Virus record (IMG/VR): IMGVR_UViG_3300025085_000186
Location: 1 to 24,183 of that record
Length of the DNA: 24,183 nucleotides
DNA from: a virus
Strand: one strand, 5' to 3'
Shown here: piece by piece, positions 1-5,632 of the stretch
Numbering within the stretch: the first letter of the stretch is position 1
Layout of the letters: each line of letters opens with the position of its first letter
The notes under the pieces: generated by a model
What the model was told of the DNA's origin: nothing
Databases searched by the model: none
The model's input: only the letters and a program-made list of their open reading frames with translations
Translations under genes and position numbers: made by a program

Positions 1-126
1 GAAGGTTACATTACGAACAAACGCAGACCTAATGTGTTGTATAACTCTGCCCTTTACTCGGACAGAGTATACATCTTTGTGTAGGTTCCAATATGTTTCA
101 TGGCGTTGGTTAATGATCGGGTTCAT
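1..126 (-). CDS. Small phage protein, 3' end outside window
   Basis: The ATG is at 126 on the minus strand, and the first 42 codons are open to the window edge. The Shine-Dalgarno AAGGAG overlaps the stop codon of the upstream Gp88-like gene, so the two are probably translationally coupled. The visible part contains NLHKDVYSVRVKGRVIQHI. From memory this resembles the start of a small family seen in phages and plasmids (NLHKxxxSVR...GRV), whose function I do not know. No catalytic motif is visible. The gene is real with fair certainty because start, SD and spacing are all good. Its product is unknown. Confidence 0.7.
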   Translation of the reverse strand, partial: MNPIINQRHETYWNLHKDVYSVRVKGRVIQHIRSAFVRNVTF

Positions 127-138
127 AGTAAATACTCC

Positions 139-762
139 TTAGTATTTCTTGACTTTTTCTACAATAGTCTTAACGTCATTGATTGTATAACACAACAGAC
201 AGTCTTTGCATTTCTGTCCTGTGCAATTCTGCCTGTCTACATCCTCATGCTCTAGCACATTGTTGAATGTCTTGTCAAAGAACTTAGGCGGCTTGGACAT
301 GATGTGAGACTTTTTAGGATTGGAATAGACAAGGTTAAGGTTCTCAGGCTTGCCATGCTTTTTGATGTAGCGAAACACAATGTCAACTCGCTTAGTCCAC
401 AAGGCAAAGCGACACCAAGGATTGTCAAGGACAATAGCCATAAGGTTTTCCATGTGCTGATCGTTGATCAGTTCACCATGTGCTGAGAAACGAAACACAC
501 TGTCCAAGATACGAGGTATCTCTTTGGGTTCCAATGGGCGGCTAGACAACAGGTCACTGTTACGCTGCAAGGCAGGAGCCATGTTCTTACGGAAGCCATC
601 AAGCATCTTGTGACTGTAGCAATCACCACAGATATTATCTGTCTTGTGTTCAACAGCTTTAGCATGTTGCTCAATGCAATAGGTATTTGTTTTTGTGTTG
701 GTACTGATAGCACGAAACTCAGCAAGTTTACCTGTCATATTTGATATGTGAACAGCAGTCAT
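139..762 (-). CDS. Gp88-family cysteine-rich phage protein
   Basis: The product has 207 residues. The N-terminal MTGKLAEFRAIST, then CGDCYSHK, an LxRN segment, FRFSAHGEL and a CRFALWTKR motif match, from memory, the phage Gene product 88 family. The C-terminus has a cluster CTGQKCKDCLLC, so metal or iron-sulfur binding is plausible but not shown. The biochemical role of the family is not established. The start was set at 762 because GGAG lies 7-10 nt upstream. A longer in-frame reading to 852 would run through the leader dyad and hairpin and was rejected. The gene has its own leader: hairpin 827-863, dyad 778-801, SD, ATG. It is followed closely by the partial gene at 1-126. Confidence 0.85.
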   Translation of the reverse strand: MTAVHISNMTGKLAEFRAISTNTKTNTYCIEQHAKAVEHKTDNICGDCYSHKMLDGFRKNMAPALQRNSDLLSSRPLEPKEIPRILDSVFRFSAHGELINDQHMENLMAIVLDNPWCRFALWTKRVDIVFRYIKKHGKPENLNLVYSNPKKSHIMSKPPKFFDKTFNNVLEHEDVDRQNCTGQKCKDCLLCYTINDVKTIVEKVKKY

Positions 763-777
763 AGTGTTACTCCGTAA

Positions 778-801
778 AAAGTGTCCAACATTGGACCGTT
801 T
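778..801 (-). promoter_or_regulatory. Leader dyad element, copy 1
   Basis: Full copy of the 24-bp element: AAA, GT, core GTCCAACATTGGAC (783-796), CG, TTT as read on the plus strand. It lies 20 nt upstream of the ATG of the Gp88-like gene and immediately upstream of its SD. The same element stands before most minus-strand genes in this block. Confidence 0.85.
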
Positions 802-826
802 CAGTTTGTTACAGTGTAGTATATAA

Positions 827-863
827 ATACTTAGTACTTTTATAAATGTCAAGTACTAAGTAT
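827..863 (-). other. Leader hairpin A
   Basis: Perfect 13-bp stem, 827-839 with 851-863, and an 11-nt loop. It lies between the stop of the 79-residue gene and the dyad of the Gp88 gene, where the other long leader hairpins sit. The stem sequence differs from the others, while the flanking GTTATACACAC and TATATAA sequences are shared. It lacks a clear T-run, so a simple intrinsic terminator is not assured. Confidence 0.75.
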
Positions 864-873
864 GTTATACACA

Positions 874-1113
874 CTAGTTGATGGTTAGCGGTATGGGGTA
901 AGCATAGTCGATGCCAACAAATTCATCGGGTACATATTCCTTGCACTCTAACATCTCAATGTTAGCGAGAGGTGTTTGCATCTGAGCCAACAGCATAGCT
1001 GTTTCGACAGCAGACTTCCAATCGTTTACGTTAGGCATAGTATCGTCCAGCTTAACTACACTAGGCACATTATCAATGCCTAGCGTTACTTCATATGCTT
1101 GTAGATAACTCAT
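874..1113 (-). CDS. Hypothetical small phage protein (79 aa)
   Basis: Not recognised. The product is 79 residues, acidic, with no transmembrane segment or cysteine cluster. It begins MSYLQAYEVTLGIDNVPSV and ends in a hydrophobic IPLTIN. The start at 1113 has GGAG at a somewhat long spacing inside the previous gene. Its ATG overlaps the stop of the 42-codon gene upstream (ATGA arrangement), so it is the last gene of a three-gene coupled unit, 1605 to 874. Its TAG stop lies at the edge of the conserved sequence that begins the next leader hairpin. Real gene likely, function unknown. Confidence 0.7.
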   Translation of the reverse strand: MSYLQAYEVTLGIDNVPSVVKLDDTMPNVNDWKSAVETAMLLAQMQTPLANIEMLECKEYVPDEFVGIDYAYPIPLTIN

Positions 1114-1238
1114 GTTTGTTTCTCCAATTCCTTACGGATTTTAGCCAGTAAATCTACTAAAGATTTATCTGAACGCATACTAGTCTTAGGCAGTAGCTGC
1201 TCACACATGGTGAGCAACTTTAGTTCAAGTTCCTTCAT
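1110..1238 (-). CDS. Hypothetical 42-residue protein
   Basis: Not recognised. A short open frame of 42 codons begins MKELELKLLTMCEQLLP and is predicted by eye to be mostly two charged helices (ELELKLL, LVDLLAKIRKELEK). It is supported by tight packing. Its ATG lies 1 nt after the stop of the upstream helix-turn-helix gene, with AGGG as SD, and its TGA overlaps the ATG of the 79-residue gene. Such a fit at both ends is unlikely for a chance frame. It could be a small protein-protein adaptor, but nothing proves a function. Confidence 0.6.
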   Translation of the reverse strand: MKELELKLLTMCEQLLPKTSMRSDKSLVDLLAKIRKELEKQT

Positions 1239-1239
1239 A

Positions 1240-1605
1240 TTACCCTGCCAAAGCAGCAGGGTTTTTGTCCATCAACTGCTTGTAAAGCAGAGTGGTTTGC
1301 TCCCAGCTTTGGATATATTCCTTACGTAGCTGGGCCTCGGCGGTCATGTTGGGGCATTTGTGAGGCAGGATGCCAAGCTGTTGTAGCTTCCCAACACGGT
1401 AAACTATACGGTTATGAAACTCGTTAAGGTTACGAGCCATTTCTTTGGCTGTCATGGTCATGTAGTTCTCGACTACATAATCATCAATGACGCTGTAGTT
1501 ATATGTATAACACGCTGCCTTCGACATATGGAAGGTGTGCTGCTCATACAAAGCAGGGTTGCTAGACTTGACGATAGGACGGGTTGTGTTTGTGTTGGTA
1601 GTCAT
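1240..1605 (-). CDS. Helix-turn-helix protein, possible leader-binding regulator
   Basis: The product has 121 residues. Residues about 42-80 (DYVVENYMTMTAKEMARNL followed by NRIVYRVGKLQQLGIL) look like a DNA-binding helix-turn-helix of the AsnC/winged type, with a regularly placed second helix. It is the clearest DNA-binding candidate in the minus-strand block and could bind the repeated dyads, including the one 20-odd nt in front of its own start; that is inference. The start at 1605 was preferred over an in-frame ATG at 1611 because AGGAG is 8 nt from 1605 and only 2 nt from 1611. The SD sits in the loop of a GCATA/TATGC hairpin. Confidence 0.75.
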   Translation of the reverse strand: MTTNTNTTRPIVKSSNPALYEQHTFHMSKAACYTYNYSVIDDYVVENYMTMTAKEMARNLNEFHNRIVYRVGKLQQLGILPHKCPNMTAEAQLRKEYIQSWEQTTLLYKQLMDKNPAALAG

Positions 1606-1625
1606 GTGCATATCTCCTATGCTGT

Positions 1626-1649
1626 AAAGTGTCCAATGTTGGACCGTTT
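1626..1649 (-). promoter_or_regulatory. Leader dyad element, copy 2 (inverted centre)
   Basis: The core GTCCAATGTTGGAC is at 1631-1644. The two central bases are TG where the other copies read CA, while the asymmetric flanks AAAGT and CGTTT keep their usual orientation. It precedes the helix-turn-helix gene. Confidence 0.85.
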
Positions 1650-1669
1650 GGTTGGGGTAGTAAGTGTAG

Positions 1670-1718
1670 TATATAAATAATAAGTATATCGTAAGAACTC
1701 TATACTTATTATGTTATA
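1670..1718 (-). repeat. 49-bp leader repeat, copy 1
   Basis: Identical over 49 bp to 3297-3345. It covers leader hairpin B and its flanks. Identity in the stem, loop and flanks of two distant leaders points to recent copying or gene conversion. Confidence 0.85.
1677..1712 (-). other. Leader hairpin B
   Basis: Perfect 12-bp AT-rich stem, 1677-1688 with 1701-1712, and a 12-nt loop. On the minus strand the loop contains GTTCTTACGA, which recurs in the loops of hairpins D, E and F and, with one extra T, in G, although some of their stems differ. Confidence 0.8.
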
Positions 1719-1730
1719 CACACTAAGTGT

Positions 1731-2117
1731 TTAAGCCAGTGTTAGTTTAAGGTCAAGCTCTTTCCATCCTACAGGCATACACATTACTGCTGTATTTTCT
1801 AGCAGATCAACAGCGATATCACCAACCGACATTGAAGGATGTTTCTGTAGTGATACTACATTGATACCCTCTCTGGCATAGCCATTACCTGCATCAAATA
1901 TATCTGATAATGCAAGTGACATACCATCAGTACAACTGATCAACATGGTCTGTTTATACATACCAAGTTCAATGGCATCCAATGCCCTTCGATTGGCATT
2001 TTCCCCATTGGGAAACATCAAGGCAAAGTATGCTAAAGCAAAGTCACTGTCCTGTTGTGCATTAATGCGCTTCACTTGATCGTCGGATAGTGGACGTTGG
2101 TAAATCATATAGGTCAT
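1731..2117 (-). CDS. Hypothetical phage protein (128 aa)
   Basis: Not recognised. The product is 128 residues, beginning MTYMIYQRPLSDDQVKRINA, soluble, with a LALSDIFDAGNGYAREGINV segment and a hydrophobic, methionine-rich C-terminus. The start at 2117 is favoured by GAAGGG 9-10 nt upstream and by the TAA of the preceding short frame two bases before it. A longer in-frame start at 2153 would overlap that short frame and has no better SD. It closes the unit that begins at dyad copy 3. The stop is followed after about a dozen bases by leader hairpin B. Confidence 0.75.
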   Translation of the reverse strand: MTYMIYQRPLSDDQVKRINAQQDSDFALAYFALMFPNGENANRRALDAIELGMYKQTMLISCTDGMSLALSDIFDAGNGYAREGINVVSLQKHPSMSVGDIAVDLLENTAVMCMPVGWKELDLKLTLA

Positions 2118-2118
2118 T

Positions 2119-2208
2119 TTATCGTACCCTTCTACGAAGTTTTTGTTTAGCATAACGTAAAGACTTACGTTCTATCTGCCACAACTTGCGGCGTTCCTTG
2201 TAAGTCAT
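2119..2208 (-). CDS. Possible 29-residue basic peptide
   Basis: A 29-codon frame begins MTYKERRKLWQIERKSLRYA and is very basic (many Arg and Lys). It lies between dyad copy 3, 9 nt upstream of its ATG, and the start of the 128-residue gene, which begins immediately after its TAA. The position matches the other leader-driven genes, and the stop-start coupling is tight. However, no good SD is seen upstream, and an ATGATATG sequence makes the start ambiguous. It may be a real peptide, a leader peptide for the next gene, or chance. Confidence 0.4.
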   Translation of the reverse strand: MTYKERRKLWQIERKSLRYAKQKLRRRVR

Positions 2209-2216
2209 ATCATTCT

Positions 2217-2235
2217 GTCCAACATTGGACCGTTT
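2217..2235 (-). promoter_or_regulatory. Leader dyad element, copy 3
   Basis: The core GTCCAACATTGGAC is at 2217-2230, with the CGTTT flank on one side only. The usual AAAGT flank is replaced. No long hairpin accompanies it. Confidence 0.75.
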
Positions 2236-2261
2236 GATAAACTTAATAAAGTTTAAGAGTT

Positions 2262-2441
2262 TCATCCATCCATATACTCCCTGAGTGCCTTACGGAAATC
2301 CGTTTGGCGATTACGTTTAGCTTTGTTGCCCTTTTTAGGAAGGACAACTTGCGGTGACTTGCGTTCCTGCAGCATAGCTTTAGCTACAGGATTGACAATA
2401 CCCATTGGGGCATTCTTCATATTACGATTAGGCACTTTCAT
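2262..2441 (-). CDS. Small basic phage protein (59 aa)
   Basis: A 59-codon frame, MKVPNRNMKNAPMGIVNPVA onwards, with a central QVVLPKKGNKAKRNRQ and a C-terminal FRKALREYMDG. The NPVAKAML stretch followed by a basic KKG segment recalls small conserved proteins of unknown function in other phages; this is memory, not a search. It overlaps the end of the 33-residue membrane peptide gene by 14 bp, so it is probably translated by coupling, which fits the lack of a clear SD. It might bind nucleic acid because of its charge. Confidence 0.6.
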   Translation of the reverse strand: MKVPNRNMKNAPMGIVNPVAKAMLQERKSPQVVLPKKGNKAKRNRQTDFRKALREYMDG

Positions 2442-2529
2442 TTTTAAACAAATCCCAAAACATCCATCCTAATGCACAAACTTGCACAAGGATTAAACCT
2501 GCAATTACACCAGACAAAAGATACTCCAT
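2428..2529 (-). CDS. 33-residue single-helix membrane peptide
   Basis: The frame MEYLLSGVIAGLILVQVCAL followed by GWMFWDLFKNESA has 33 codons. Residues about 4-26 form one hydrophobic helix with an aromatic WMFWDLF border and a short polar tail. The ATG overlaps the TAA of the 57-residue gene (TAATG) and the stop overlaps the next gene by 14 bp, so it is locked into a coupled unit of three. Size and topology suggest an inner-membrane peptide that interacts with a host membrane protein, but no function can be assigned. Confidence 0.6.
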   Translation of the reverse strand: MEYLLSGVIAGLILVQVCALGWMFWDLFKNESA

Positions 2530-2702
2530 TAAAGTTCGTCCCAAAAGATGCCCTTGAAGAAATCTCTATCTTCTGGCGATACGTTAGGCATGGCTTCCTG
2601 TATCAAAGCACCATCCATCCATGCTCTCACTTGTTCAAGGTTCACATCAATCTCTTTAGAGCGAACATCATCGGACAAGATAGATTTTACTTCAACAAAC
2701 AT
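2529..2702 (-). CDS. Small phage protein (57 aa)
   Basis: The product has 57 residues, with RAWMDGALIQEAMPNVSPED and a following FFKGIFWDEL. The pattern W-x-x-G-x-L-I-Q-E-A-x-P...S-P-E-x-R-x-F...G-I recalls a short phage family of unknown function. The start was set at 2702, with SD AAGGAA. A longer reading to 2732 would start at the ATG inside the dyad core, which has no SD and only translates the leader. It is the first gene of a coupled unit (57, 33 and 59 residues) under dyad copy 4. Confidence 0.75.
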   Translation of the reverse strand: MFVEVKSILSDDVRSKEIDVNLEQVRAWMDGALIQEAMPNVSPEDRDFFKGIFWDEL

Positions 2703-2703
2703 A

Positions 2704-2718
2704 TAAAAGTTCCTTTTA
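2704..2718 (-). promoter_or_regulatory. SD-bearing GAA mini-hairpin, copy 1
   Basis: On the minus strand TAAAAG-GAA-CTTTTA forms a perfect 6-bp stem with a GAA triloop. The SD AAGGAA lies partly in the stem and partly in the loop, directly before the ATG at 2702. Confidence 0.6.
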
Positions 2719-2742
2719 AAAGTGTCCAACATTGGACCGTTT
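2719..2742 (-). promoter_or_regulatory. Leader dyad element, copy 4
   Basis: Full 24-bp copy with core 2724-2737, 21 nt upstream of the ATG of the 57-residue gene. Confidence 0.85.
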
Positions 2743-2769
2743 CGGTTGGGTCGTTAGTGTGTTATATAA

Positions 2770-2808
2770 GTTATATATACTTTCACTAAAGTATCAAGTA
2801 TATATAAC
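2770..2808 (-). other. Leader hairpin C
   Basis: Perfect 13-bp stem, 2770-2782 with 2796-2808, and a 13-nt loop. The stem sequence is unlike the other hairpins, and the loop does not carry GTTCTTACGA. The flanks TTATATAA and GTTATAACCAC are conserved. Confidence 0.75.
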
Positions 2809-2821
2809 GTTATAACCACTA

Positions 2822-2953
2822 TCAAAAGATAGTAAGATTAGGCCATATGTACACTGCAAACCACAACAATATAGCCAGAACAACGGCAGCATTTAAGGCA
2901 ACCATAATACCATTACCAATGGTATAAAGAATGTTTAAGACAGCTTGTTTCAT
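2822..2953 (-). CDS. 43-residue single-helix membrane peptide
   Basis: A 43-codon frame begins MKQAVLNILYTIGNGIMVAL, followed by NAAVVLAILLWFAVYIW. It has a single long transmembrane segment, residues about 15-38, with a lysine at the N-terminus. It has a complete leader of its own: dyad copy 5, mini-hairpin with SD AAGGAA, then ATG. No long hairpin separates it from the 82-residue gene upstream, so the two may share a transcript. Being a membrane peptide with a dedicated leader suggests a regulated effect on the host envelope, but this is inference. Confidence 0.65.
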   Translation of the reverse strand: MKQAVLNILYTIGNGIMVALNAAVVLAILLWFAVYIWPNLTIF

Positions 2954-2954
2954 A

Positions 2955-2971
2955 TTAAAAGTTCCTTTTAA
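2955..2971 (-). promoter_or_regulatory. SD-bearing GAA mini-hairpin, copy 2
   Basis: On the minus strand TTAAAAG-GAA-CTTTTAA forms a 7-bp perfect stem with a GAA triloop that includes the SD. It ends directly before the ATG at 2953. Confidence 0.6.
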
Positions 2972-2994
2972 AAGTGTCCAACATTGGACCGTTT
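2971..2994 (-). promoter_or_regulatory. Leader dyad element, copy 5
   Basis: Full 24-bp copy with core 2976-2989. It abuts the TGA stop of the upstream 82-residue gene at 2994-2996, so this leader lacks the long hairpin. Confidence 0.85.
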
Positions 2995-3242
2995 CAGTTA
3001 CGCTCTGCTTGGCGAAGCCAACGCTCTGCTGTAGTTACATCAGCAGCACCTGCTTTCATACAGGCAATCACAGCCTCATCATGAGCCTCACGCTCAGATT
3101 GCAGGTCTGCATTAATCTGCTCTTGCAGATCAGCTTTCCATTGCTGCTGATCAGCCTCAGACATATCCCGATAGAACACAAGATCACCGCCACGTGGCCT
3201 AAAGCCATAGGCATCTTTGTACATATCGCTGAAGTTATCCAT
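2994..3242 (-). CDS. Conserved-looking small phage protein (82 aa)
   Basis: The product has 82 residues. The N-terminal FSDMYKDAYGFRPRGGDLVF resembles a DMYxDxxGxRPR motif that I recall at the start of many short phage proteins of unknown function. The rest is a long charged helix, rich in Glu, Gln and Ala, that could form a coiled coil. The start at 3242 has SD GAAGGAAC inside a mini-hairpin and dyad copy 6 about 20 nt upstream. It is preceded by hairpin D. No enzymatic motif is visible. Confidence 0.75.
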   Translation of the reverse strand: MDNFSDMYKDAYGFRPRGGDLVFYRDMSEADQQQWKADLQEQINADLQSEREAHDEAVIACMKAGAADVTTAERWLRQAERN

Positions 3243-3243
3243 A

Positions 3244-3258
3244 TAGAAGTTCCTTCTA
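3244..3258 (-). promoter_or_regulatory. SD-bearing GAA mini-hairpin, copy 3
   Basis: On the minus strand TAGAAG-GAA-CTTCTA forms a 6-bp perfect stem with a GAA triloop. Compared with the copies at 2704 and 2955, an A-T pair is replaced by G-C on both sides, which is a compensatory change. Confidence 0.65.
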
Positions 3259-3281
3259 AAGTGTCCAACATTGGACCGTTT
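3258..3281 (-). promoter_or_regulatory. Leader dyad element, copy 6
   Basis: Full 24-bp copy with core 3263-3276, 20 nt upstream of the ATG at 3242. Confidence 0.85.
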
Positions 3282-3296
3282 CAGTTTGTAGTACGT

Positions 3297-3345
3297 TATA
3301 TAAATAATAAGTATATCGTAAGAACTCTATACTTATTATGTTATA
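3297..3345 (-). repeat. 49-bp leader repeat, copy 2
   Basis: Identical over 49 bp to 1670-1718. It contains hairpin D. Confidence 0.85.
3304..3339 (-). other. Leader hairpin D
   Basis: 12-bp perfect stem, 3304-3315 with 3328-3339, and a 12-nt loop containing GTTCTTACGA on the minus strand. Same sequence as hairpin B. Confidence 0.8.
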
Positions 3346-3353
3346 ACTACTAT

Positions 3354-3665
3354 TTACATTCCGTCTTCGTGGCATCCATATGGTGCAAGGTATCCCATTT
3401 CAAGGATACTATCCCAAAATTCTTTCGCTGATTCTGCGGTTAAATCAGACCATTTTTCTACGAAAGCACGGCGCATCATCCCATTACCACAATCGTCAAT
3501 CTTATCTTGAACTGATTTAGGAAGATTAAGGCAGTGTACATAATCATCTTCACCCCATGAAAAATATGATTTAACATCATCTTGATTACCAAATTTCTGT
3601 AAGAAATCGTTGCGGCCCATTTGATAAGCGTCAGCTTCCATATAAAGATTAAACAATTTTGACAT
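3354..3665 (-). CDS. Hypothetical phage protein (103 aa)
   Basis: Not recognised. The product is 103 residues, beginning MSKLFNLYMEADAYQMGRND, acidic, with several aromatic residues and a C-terminal YLAPYGCHEDGM. Three cysteines are scattered and do not form a metal motif. The start at 3665 is supported by SD GAAGGAAC in a GAA mini-hairpin and by dyad copy 7, 20 nt upstream. It is a single-gene unit bracketed by two leaders, with hairpin D right after its stop and hairpin E before its leader. Composition and length suggest a small host-interaction protein, but nothing shows this. Confidence 0.75.
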   Translation of the reverse strand: MSKLFNLYMEADAYQMGRNDFLQKFGNQDDVKSYFSWGEDDYVHCLNLPKSVQDKIDDCGNGMMRRAFVEKWSDLTAESAKEFWDSILEMGYLAPYGCHEDGM

Positions 3666-3666
3666 G

Positions 3667-3681
3667 TAGAAGTTCCTTCTA
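3667..3681 (-). promoter_or_regulatory. SD-bearing GAA mini-hairpin, copy 4
   Basis: On the minus strand TAGAAG-GAA-CTTCTA, identical to copy 3, directly before the ATG at 3665. Confidence 0.65.
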
Positions 3682-3704
3682 AAGTGTCCAACATTGGACC
3701 GTTT
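3681..3704 (-). promoter_or_regulatory. Leader dyad element, copy 7
   Basis: Full 24-bp copy with core 3686-3699. Its right side is the start of the 91-bp repeat. Confidence 0.85.
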
Positions 3705-3785
3705 CGGTTTGATGGTGTGTTATATAAAAGCAATAGGTAGTTCGTAAGAACTTACTACCTATTACTTGTTATAACCACTAGTTAG
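3695..3785 (-). repeat. 91-bp leader direct repeat, copy 1
   Basis: Matches 3918-4008 over 91 bp with one mismatch (GATGGTG against GATAGTG). It spans half of the dyad, the linker, hairpin E and the stop region of the upstream gene. Together with copy 2 it brackets the 37-codon gene. Confidence 0.9.
3732..3763 (-). other. Leader hairpin E
   Basis: 10-bp perfect stem AATAGGTAGT with ACTACCTATT (3732-3741, 3754-3763). The loop holds GTTCTTACGA on the minus strand and can form an inner 4-5 bp stem. Confidence 0.8.
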
Positions 3786-3895
3786 CAAAAAGATACGACT
3801 ACGAAAGACGTAGTGTCGAAACCCACTCTTGCAGGTGTGATGGTTAGAAAGGTGAATGGCAGACGGGCTACCCAGCTTGTCGAACGTACTAGCAT
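3782..3895 (-). CDS. 37-residue hydrophobic peptide between leader repeats
   Basis: A 37-codon frame begins MLVRSTSWVARLPFTFLTIT and ends FVVVSFC. It is hydrophobic and aromatic with few charges, but has no clean transmembrane helix. Support comes from a strong SD, AGGAG, 7 nt before the ATG at 3895, and from its position between two leader copies. Its TAA lies inside the 91-bp repeat. Its own dyad is degenerate, with only the right half surviving at 3918-3927. No function can be suggested. It may be a recently inserted or decaying cassette. Confidence 0.55.
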   Translation of the reverse strand: MLVRSTSWVARLPFTFLTITPARVGFDTTSFVVVSFC

Positions 3896-3917
3896 TTTGT
3901 TACTCCTGATATGTTAG

Positions 3918-3927
3918 TGGACCGTTT
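3918..3927 (-). promoter_or_regulatory. Degenerate leader dyad, half copy
   Basis: TGGACCGTTT is kept but the other arm is lost (the sequence reads ATGTTAG instead of GTCCAACAT). It precedes the 37-codon gene. Confidence 0.6.
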
Positions 3928-3954
3928 CGGTTTGATAGTGTGTTATATAAAAGC

Positions 3955-3986
3955 AATAGGTAGTTCGTAAGAACTTACTACCTATT
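3955..3986 (-). other. Leader hairpin F
   Basis: Same stem and loop as hairpin E: stem 3955-3964 with 3977-3986. It follows the stop of the 217-residue gene by about 25 bp. Confidence 0.8.
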
Positions 3987-4011
3987 ACTTGTTATAACCA
4001 CTAGTTAGTGA

Positions 4012-4665
4012 TTAGAATGGAAGGCCAACAGATTTTACTGCTTTAGCAGCAATGTGTGTATTTGCAGCATCTACAGGATCATCTGCATCAAGCTCTGCTT
4101 CAAGCCGTTCTTGCTCAATCATGAGCATCTCAATGATCTCTTCAAGATCAAGGCCATTGCCTTTCACAATGTCCATCATTTTGTCTACGACAAGCTGCGG
4201 AGTAACCTTTAGGTTAGGATTTGGTCCAACATTGGACACTTCTGCTTTAGCAGTAGGTTGTTCCGTTGGTTCAGCTTTAGCTGTAGTATCAGCTTCGCTG
4301 TCTGGATTGGCAGCTTTACGCATTGCAGCTTTTAAAGCTGTAAGACTAGAACCTTTGAACTTGCCTTTGGCAATGAAGTCACGGCACTCTTTTTCGTTTT
4401 CAACGAACCAAAGAGCCTCAGAACGGCGGCGTTTATCAATACCATTGATCCCATGAGTGACCAAGGTTTGACGACTGATTTGACCACTATCCATCGGAGA
4501 TGAGGCTTTCAACTTCTGTAGAAGTTTACCCAACCGAGTATCAAAGCCATTGGCTTTTACAGTCTGTTTCAACGAGTTGAGTTGACGCCACATTTTACCA
4601 AGGGCTTTGCCCTCTGCAATATCGTCACCGATTGAGGTAGTTTGGTTTTGGTTTGGAGTTGCCAT
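4012..4665 (-). CDS. First gene of the minus-strand block, hypothetical (217 aa)
   Basis: The product has 217 residues. The N-terminus is rich in Asn, Gln and Thr. The middle has a basic INGIDKRRRSEALWFVENEK stretch followed by a Lys/Ala helix. Next comes a low-complexity Ala/Thr/Glu linker, then an acidic C-terminal helix pair (LDLEEIIEMLMIEQERLEAE). The KRRRSEALWF region recalls early proteins of other marine phages, function unknown. The start at 4665 has SD AAAGGA and lies downstream of hairpin G and a minus-strand TTGACA box, so it is probably the first gene expressed leftward. A dyad core lies inside the coding sequence at 4224-4237. Confidence 0.8.
   Translation of the reverse strand: MATPNQNQTTSIGDDIAEGKALGKMWRQLNSLKQTVKANGFDTRLGKLLQKLKASSPMDSGQISRQTLVTHGINGIDKRRRSEALWFVENEKECRDFIAKGKFKGSSLTALKAAMRKAANPDSEADTTAKAEPTEQPTAKAEVSNVGPNPNLKVTPQLVVDKMMDIVKGNGLDLEEIIEMLMIEQERLEAELDADDPVDAANTHIAAKAVKSVGLPF
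4223..4241 (+). promoter_or_regulatory. Dyad element in opposite orientation, inside a gene
   Basis: On the plus strand GGTCCAACATTGGACACTT. The core is perfect, but the asymmetric flanks match the element as it reads on the minus strand elsewhere, so this copy is inverted relative to the others. It codes for residues SNVGP of the 217-residue protein. Confidence 0.6.
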
Positions 4666-4699
4666 GGTTAGTTTTCCTTTTATCTATTCTGTTTATATG

Positions 4700-4741
4700 A
4701 GAGAACTTATATCTCTCGTAAAGAACGAGATATAATTCTCT
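4700..4741 (-). other. Leader hairpin G
   Basis: AGAGAA (4700-4705) and TTATATCTC (4707-4715) pair with TTCTCT (4736-4741) and GAGATATAA (4727-4735), a 15-bp stem with a one-base bulge. The loop on the minus strand is GTTCTTTACGA, close to hairpins B, D, E and F. It lies before the first minus-strand gene, with no gene upstream to terminate. Confidence 0.75.
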
Positions 4742-4749
4742 TTATAAAC

Positions 4750-4778
4750 TAAGTAGAATAGAAAAAAGGGTTTGTCAA
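4750..4778 (-). promoter_or_regulatory. Candidate leftward promoter
   Basis: Perfect -35 TTGACA on the minus strand (4778-4773), then 17 nt to TACTTA (4755-4750), a poor -10. It lies about 85 bp upstream of the first minus-strand gene. The -35 is convincing and the -10 is not. Confidence 0.35.
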
Positions 4779-4796
4779 GTGGGTTGGTTTTGGTGA

Positions 4797-5190
4797 TTGA
4801 TCGAAGATCAAAAGGTCGCATGATGATCCTCGGCGCAGGTCGTTTCGCATTGACTGCAGGTATCGAAGATACCGAAGTTCGTACGTGAAACTCGTGAGGA
4901 GTGTTGCTGAATTGTCACAGTTTGTATATAGATGGAACATCTAAAAAGTGTCCAACATTGGACCGTTTGACCATTGGCAGAGCTATGCATGGCTTGTAGG
5001 ATCACATGACTGACCAATACCATTGGTGGGGTAGGGTATTTTTAAGCATCGGCTTCACTACACATCTTCGATGTGAAAACCCTTGGTATCAATTCACTAT
5101 TTATAGTGGCAACTGATTGAATAACACTTGTCGTAGACAAGGAAGCTGTTGAAATCACTCACTCTTTAGAGTGTTTGGTGTGATGATCAC
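4797..5190. other. Array of mini-hairpins in the control region
   Basis: Perfect short stems with tiny loops follow one another. 4797-4811 TTGATC-GAA-GATCAA; 4859-4873 GGTATC-GAA-GATACC; 4929-4943 TAGATG-GAA-CATCTA; 5013-5027 ACCAAT-ACC-ATTGGT; 5061-5075 CACATC-TTC-GATGTG (GAA on the minus strand); 5095-5108 CACTA-TTTA-TAGTG; 5127-5141 CTTGTC-GTA-GACAAG; 5160-5173 CACTC-TTTA-GAGTG; 5180-5190 GTGA-TGA-TCAC. Four of the loops are GNA closed by C-G, the motif known to make exceptionally stable single-stranded DNA mini-hairpins. No convincing gene lies here. An origin of replication or a set of single-strand promoters are the best guesses. Confidence 0.7.
4945..4968 (-). promoter_or_regulatory. 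Leader dyad element, copy 10 (no gene)
   Basis: Full 24-bp copy with core 4950-4963, followed on the minus strand by a mini-hairpin (4929-4943) at the usual distance. Here the transcript loop reads TTC rather than GAA, and no SD or convincing gene follows. Confidence 0.8.
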
Positions 5191-5196
5191 CTCATC

Positions 5197-5262
5197 TGCC
5201 CTCACCGCAACGGCTGCTTAGGCATTATGCATAGGTACAGGCGCAGTGACACGTGAGGGGCA
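5197..5262. other. GC-rich structured element
   Basis: TGCCCTCAC (5197-5205) pairs with GTGAGGGGCA (5253-5262) with one bulged G. A GGTAC/GTACC pair and a GGGG/CCCC pair extending to about 5280 offer alternative folds. The segment is clearly more GC-rich than its surroundings. No coding frame or tRNA fold was found. Confidence 0.45.
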
Positions 5263-5442
5263 AGGGCCACCCCCGTACCCAGCGTATATATGCATGTACT
5301 AATACACAGATTAGGTTTTTTAACTGGTAACCACAAGGTATATATACGTACTATGATACCCCATAGACACACTTACTGTGATATATTTGTCACACTATGC
5401 CCTAATGCTACACTAAAATCCTACCACATACAACATTAGGGG

Positions 5443-5476
5443 TTGACATGTTTTACCGAATGTGTAAAACTATCAT
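5443..5476 (+). promoter_or_regulatory. Candidate rightward promoter with overlapping dyad
   Basis: TTGACA at 5443-5448, then 16 nt to TAAAAC (5465-5470). The spacer and -10 are formed by a perfect inverted repeat, GTTTTAC (5450-5456) and GTAAAAC (5464-5470), which could be an operator. It lies about 160 bp upstream of the first plus-strand gene. Confidence 0.4.
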
Positions 5477-5632
5477 AGTAGACAGTAGACACTCACTTAC
5501 AGTGATTCATTGATAGATAAAAAATAATTCTAATCTATTAATCACGTAAATGCAGACACTTTAAGTGAGGAAACACAAATCCTACTACTTAAATGTACAT
5601 AAATAACAATAATATGTAGAAAGTACTTGACA

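Follow-up and report, generated by a model that had tools for sequence, protein, structure and literature searches.

What is a tight cluster of short, perfect hairpins doing between two divergent gene blocks of a marine phage? The question is raised by positions 4797-5190 of the window, a 24-kb piece of the genome of a marine podovirus of the HMO-2011 type. HMO-2011-type phages are reported to be a dominant marine group (PMC9038755), and the text of that paper mentions neither promoters nor RNA polymerase. The closest isolates, CRP-1, CRP-345 and HMO-2011, share about 74% nucleotide identity with the window across the terminase-portal region. Within the open PMC literature, no description of the array was found. 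A preliminary description based on the bare sequence had listed nine short hairpins here and proposed that they act at the level of DNA, as part of an origin or as a set of hairpin promoters.

All nine hairpins were located where they had been placed. A stem/loop search recovers six perfect 6-bp stems with 3-nt loops: TTGATC-gaa-GATCAA (4797-4811), GGTATC-gaa-GATACC (4859-4873, the D1 hairpin), TAGATG-gaa-CATCTA (4929-4943), ACCAAT-acc-ATTGGT (5013-5027), CACATC-ttc-GATGTG (5061-5075) and CTTGTC-gta-GACAAG (5127-5141). The two 5-bp stems with TTTA loops are CACTA-ttta-TAGTG (5095-5108), which extends to 6 bp with a TT loop if the T-A pair forms, and CACTC-ttta-GAGTG (5160-5173), the final hairpin in the array. 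The TAGATG hairpin is of a leader type that recurs ahead of several early genes, and it adjoins the palindrome GTCCAACATTGGAC (4950-4963; 5-bp stem GTCCA-acat-TGGAC), one of 8-9 copies ahead of minus-strand genes and probably a double-stranded DNA site or a leader element. Dinucleotide shuffles of 4797-5190 yield on average 0.12 of the 6-bp triloop hairpins, in keeping with the earlier estimate of well under one, with a maximum of 3 and none of 1000 shuffles reaching the observed six. Relaxing the criteria to stems of 5 bp or more and loops of 3-5 nt brings the count to nine, against 1.16 expected (0/1000). Both strands of the array, folded as single-stranded DNA, are more stable than their shuffles (z -3.03 and -3.00). 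The C-GNA-G triloops that had been reported are present at 4797, 4859 and 5127 on the plus strand and at 5061 on the minus strand; the remaining triloops are of other kinds. Among relatives, enrichment of GNA/TNC loops is not significant (33% vs 21%, p 0.20), and a 5'-C/3'-G closing pair is enriched (66% vs 30%, p 7e-8).

Relatives for alignment were drawn from three protein-based scans of viral contigs, a terminase scan and isolate records. The preliminary description had suggested looking for conservation of the hairpins rather than of their sequence, and this is the pattern across 41-57 relatives. The clearest case lies in a conserved block, D1 (4826-4893; ATCCTC..GTTTC..CTGCAG-hairpin-GAAGT..AAACTC), recognized by alignment and covariation. 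All 57 relatives retain its hairpin with 6 bp or more, in 13 stem alleles overall. Together with three basal pairs, which occur as ACT:AGT, GTT:AAC or ATT:AAT, it is Watson-Crick paired in 369 of the 369 cells of a 41-sequence alignment, with 91 double changes, no single-sided change and no G-U. None of 500 shuffles matches its paired percentage or its covariation score, and pairing falls to 20-49% when the partner is slid by 1-3 columns as a control. An unsupervised mutual-information scan ranks the stems at 4859-4873, 5095-5108 and 5061-5075 at or near the top for covariation, and the pairs 4853-4878 and 4854-4877 stand there as well. The hairpin at 5095-5108 retains a stem of at least 5 bp in 50 of 57 relatives, with 11 stem alleles, and is followed by the conserved unpaired flank GCAACTGAT (5109-5117, plus strand). 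In most relatives CAACTG at this flank pairs with a downstream CAGTTG, and the window differs by one mismatch. Flanks such as GCAACTGAT and GAAGT, and the GCA/GA internal loop of block D1, are constant among relatives; in the array stems, the sequence changes and it is the pairing that is kept.

The preliminary description missed that the array does not stand alone. When perfect stems of 6 bp or longer and loops of 3-5 nt are counted, positions 1-5000 of the window hold 39 hairpins against about 3.6 expected from order-2 Markov controls, and after 5200 the density drops to the background of about one per kb. The excess covers the whole leftward early block together with the intergenic array (1-5173) and continues beyond the left end of the window. 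The array is thus the sharp right-hand edge, at about 5173, of a hairpin zone of about 5 kb over the leftward early genes, and the excess lies on one side only. It includes coding DNA: the gene at 4012-4665 and 21 homologues contain 158 hairpins versus 20.8 after synonymous-codon shuffling. Regular spacing was not seen, the hairpins being placed randomly or in clusters.

Several other elements accompany the leftward genes. The repeat AAAGTGTCCAACATTGGACCGTTT occurs at 782-803, 1630-1651, 2216-2237, 2723-2744, 2975-2996, 3262-3283, 3685-3706 and 4949-4970, mostly ahead of these genes. Several copies adjoin a triloop hairpin that contains a likely Shine-Dalgarno sequence, TAGAAG-gaa-CTTCTA or TTAAAAG-gaa-CTTTTAA, immediately 5' of the ATG. 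Longer hairpins lie between leftward genes at 1670-1725, 3297-3352, 3723-3778, 3946-4001 and 4680-4765; their TCGTAAGAAC-like loop is conserved while the arms change, and each is possibly a terminator overlapping the promoter of the next gene.

The same zone is found in HMO-2011 (52.5 kb through the genome start to 2.5 kb) and CRP-1 (first 5 kb), and within this marine phage group the excess amounts to 7-10 times chance over 4-9 kb at one genome position. No zone is present in the sister phage CRP-2 or in HTVC033P, and no comparable zone exists in phiM6, T7 or lambda, the last having nothing localised. One 55-kb IMG/VR contig (L005, also G001) encodes a terminase 99% identical to that of the window and has neither a match to the array nor a hairpin excess; its early module appears to have been swapped wholesale. 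Conversely, three phages of 60-68 kb (G014, G015 and G016) share few proteins with HMO-2011 yet carry equally strong zones where their gene blocks diverge, with 26-33 hairpins per 2.5 kb in G014 and G015 and 15-16 in G016 against 2.3-3.0 expected. The G016 zone stops at 35.14 kb, right beside that genome's skew minimum at 35.21 kb. A search for a gene specific to hairpin-rich phages yielded no convincing candidate, and the short ORFs that surfaced in it may reflect only the repeated leader element. A cruciform nuclease of the T7 endonuclease I family was considered as a cause and set aside, being present in hairpin-rich and hairpin-poor phages alike. The GP88-like gene (139-852 of the window) was rejected as well: many carriers at 77-81% protein identity are hairpin-poor and more distant ones, G014-G016 among them, are rich.

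Conserved pairing of this kind could arise in RNA. The array might be transcribed, from one strand or both, into a structured noncoding RNA or leader, with early mRNAs hairpin-rich for stability or regulation; the covariation and the conserved loops and flanks would suit such an element, and an RNAalifold fold of the plus strand initially appeared RNA-like. Plus-strand RNA had been read from G-U counts in the outer D1 helix, but the pyrimidine/purine composition of the columns largely predicts this pairing and its G-U excess, and the covariation scan, the pair count and a zone-wide comparison of G-U with A-C also undo the reading. In that comparison, perfect stems are enriched 7.1-fold over 55 kb of HMO-type zones and 5.5-fold over 56 kb of distant zones. 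A single G-U, scored on the mRNA strand, gives stems no higher enrichment than a single A-C does (1.60 v 1.71, p 0.50, and 1.68 v 1.63, p 0.78, respectively), so that G-U does not exceed A-C across 111 kb, and the 369 D1 cells hold none. Enrichment by loop length is 7.2, 10.2, 6.8 and 6.4 for loops of 2, 3, 4 and 5 nt, 2.6 for 6 nt and about 1.5-2 for longer ones; by stem length, with loops of 2-5 nt, it is 1.2, 1.9 and 6.7 times for 4, 5 and 6 bp. Loops of 2 nt are normal in DNA and poor in RNA. Rfam 15 gave no match at the gathering score and nothing credible up to E 10, and tRNA scans were empty. Because G-U and A-C are equally enriched and the loop optimum is 2-5 nt, the evidence points to hairpins of DNA and not of RNA, and an RNA element seems improbable. 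The earlier DNA-level reading is upheld by the conserved pairing, the strand-symmetric excess and the DNA-like loop sizes. A set of DNA hairpin promoters of the phage N4 kind, recognised by an RNA polymerase that is either injected or single-subunit, would fit the sizes of stem and loop (5-7 bp, 3 nt) and the early location, and the first 5 kb of N4 itself are hairpin-rich (20 perfect mini-hairpins at 1-5000 vs 4.3 expected), so that a related DNA-level pressure may act there. In DSS3phi2, the 49 kb covered contain mini-hairpins at about three times the expected number. The N4 rules call for -9C and -8G on the template hairpin, a G-R-N loop and +1C at a fixed distance (PMC4496689), but none of the six array triloops combines -9C, -8G and a G-R-N loop; they have T, A or another base at -8, or a closing base other than C, and the flanks differ from hairpin to hairpin. 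Sequence searches detected neither a T7-type or other single-subunit polymerase nor an N4-type one: PF00940 is absent from the complete HMO-2011, CRP-1 and CRP-345 genomes and from G014-G016, and phmmer with the DSS3phi2 vRNAP as query matched N4 at 2.5e-25 and nothing in HMO-2011, CRP-1 or the window, itself an incomplete genome. The promoter set proposed at the outset is accordingly very improbable.

Still less probable is that the array consists of double-stranded protein sites, either operators or initiator repeats. GTCCAATGTTGGAC is repeated with a fixed sequence ahead of minus-strand genes, and the region equivalent to the array in CRP-9 carries GTTTAN4TAAAC repeats. However, a site for a dimeric protein retains its sequence, whereas the array stems change and only their pairing is kept, which makes this reading one for the palindrome and not for the array. 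The CRP-9 intergenic region (L328) contains at least four GTTTANNNNTAAAC inverted repeats resembling protein sites, and in CRP-2 and CRP-603 (L326 and L325) TGTGATCACA palindromes replace the array, with several copies in CRP-603; the same palindrome also occurs within some hairpin arrays. A more serious competitor, though in our judgement unlikely to be the whole account, is a pure mutational footprint, in which template switching makes and repairs short palindromes and both zone and array are without function. Polymerase template switching yields homogenised arms and inverted spacers (PMC8604942) and is able to generate and preserve perfect hairpins (PMC8794818). The marks of that mechanism are all found here, namely perfect arms, compensated changes and loops that are inverted while the stem stays as it was: identical stems bear loops in both orientations (gaa/ttc, tt/aa), and one close relative (L106) has a compensated stem with an inverted loop. 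The random or clustered spacing also suits a footprint, as does the lack of extra synonymous conservation in coding hairpins. Among close relatives, third codon positions diverge by 9.4% inside hairpins and 9.9% outside (p 0.69), and for this reason the coding hairpins look like a footprint. Noncoding hairpins behave differently, diverging by 1.4% against 3.1% for their surroundings; the comparison covers 13 related, non-independent loci, which makes the size of the difference approximate. Since they diverge half as much as what surrounds them, the array and the leaders look to be under selection. A footprint without function would also have to accommodate a D1 hairpin that survives in every one of the 57 relatives despite complete turnover of its stem, conserved D1 flanks and an internal loop that is never 'corrected' away.

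Where might such DNA become single-stranded? To the right of the array lie elements that could belong to an origin. A G/C-run tract, GGGGCAAGGGCCACCCCCGTACCC (5255-5290), is present also in those HMO-type phages in which the array is missing; it shows C runs in the window and in four relatives (L073, L132, L155 and L237) and G runs in most relatives, so the run seems to flip strand. It is followed by a conserved block, TACACAGATYAGG...GTWAACCACA (TACACAGAT..AACCACA; 5299-5340), and by a conserved sigma70-like promoter with TTGACA for the rightward block (5443-5470, plus strand), whose HMO-2011 version is TTGACA-N17-TATAAT. An AT-rich stretch (5490-5626), with ACTTAAAGTGT / CACTTTAAATGT-like repeats in relatives, precedes the first rightward gene. 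The cumulative GC-skew minimum lies at 54,249 in HMO-2011 and 53,982 in CRP-1, within a few hundred bases of the array, and the maximum sits where the two gene blocks converge. This agrees with the origin that had been proposed and falls short of proving it, because gene direction also flips at the minimum, which hence need not mark an origin. The minimum is at the same position in CRP-2, which has no hairpin excess, so hairpins are not required for it.

The explanation that we tentatively favour, while allowing that it may well prove wrong, is that the hairpin zone, spanning the intergenic region between the divergent gene blocks and the early genes next to it, is origin-proximal DNA that is often single-stranded and carries a footprint of template switching, with the array additionally selected. 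Replication would probably start at the intergenic region beside the array, a placement suggested by the cumulative skew minimum, the G-run tract, the AT-rich repeats and the divergent promoters. Given a start there, the adjoining DNA would often be single-stranded early in infection and could fold into mini-hairpins. Polymerase switching templates across these hairpins would keep the arms identical and sometimes invert the loops, leaving a zone-wide footprint, and the intergenic hairpins with their fixed single-stranded flanks would be further selected as a folded DNA control element. Counting against this explanation are the irregular spacing of the hairpins, the restriction of their excess to one side and the skew minimum that CRP-2 has without them; loops of 2-5 nt, moreover, are expected from any hairpin-forming process. 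A broader and more doubtful proposal is that the junction of origin and early genes holds a dedicated folded-DNA zone in several phage lineages unrelated to one another. Dozens of mini-hairpins, extruding or folding within single-stranded early DNA, would there direct early transcription or the start of replication, with no RNA polymerase of the phage's own involved.

A sharply bounded zone of conserved DNA mini-hairpins would be a direct pointer to the place and manner in which replication or early expression begins in these phages, and it would offer an example from nature of a genome, its coding sequence included, that is shaped by DNA secondary structure. CRP-1, with the zone, and CRP-2, without it, infect the same host strain, FZCC0023, and have the same gene order. 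Such sister phages, alike in gene order but not in the zone, open the way to a comparative test of cause and effect.

Known systems offer partial parallels. The complementary-strand origins of M13 and G4 use one to three single-strand initiation hairpins; as in those phages, small folded hairpins would stand here at a start of replication, although the zone holds dozens of them and no sequence match to those origins is known. Promoters of N4 are supercoil-extruded DNA hairpins in the early region, of which only three are known. The array resembles the promoters of the N4 vRNAP in its 5-7 bp stems, 3-nt loops, early location and DNA-level hairpins, and N4 shares a general hairpin excess in its first 5 kb, but here no virion polymerase was found by sequence search, the loop and stem determinants are absent, the flanks are unlike one another and the dozens of hairpins extend into coding DNA. 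Perfect inverted repeats within protein-coding genes are also known from the mitochondria of Nematomorpha (PMC6649704), where the palindromes reach 284 bp, compared with arms of 6-9 bp and loops of 2-5 nt in the present case. A further parallel is template-switch homogenisation (PMC8604942, PMC8794818), which shares perfect arms, compensatory double changes and loop inversion in coding and noncoding DNA; unlike those cases, the hairpins described here occupy only a single 4-9 kb stretch of the genome, where their density is 7-10 times that expected, and only some phages have them, while the array retains an uncorrected internal loop.
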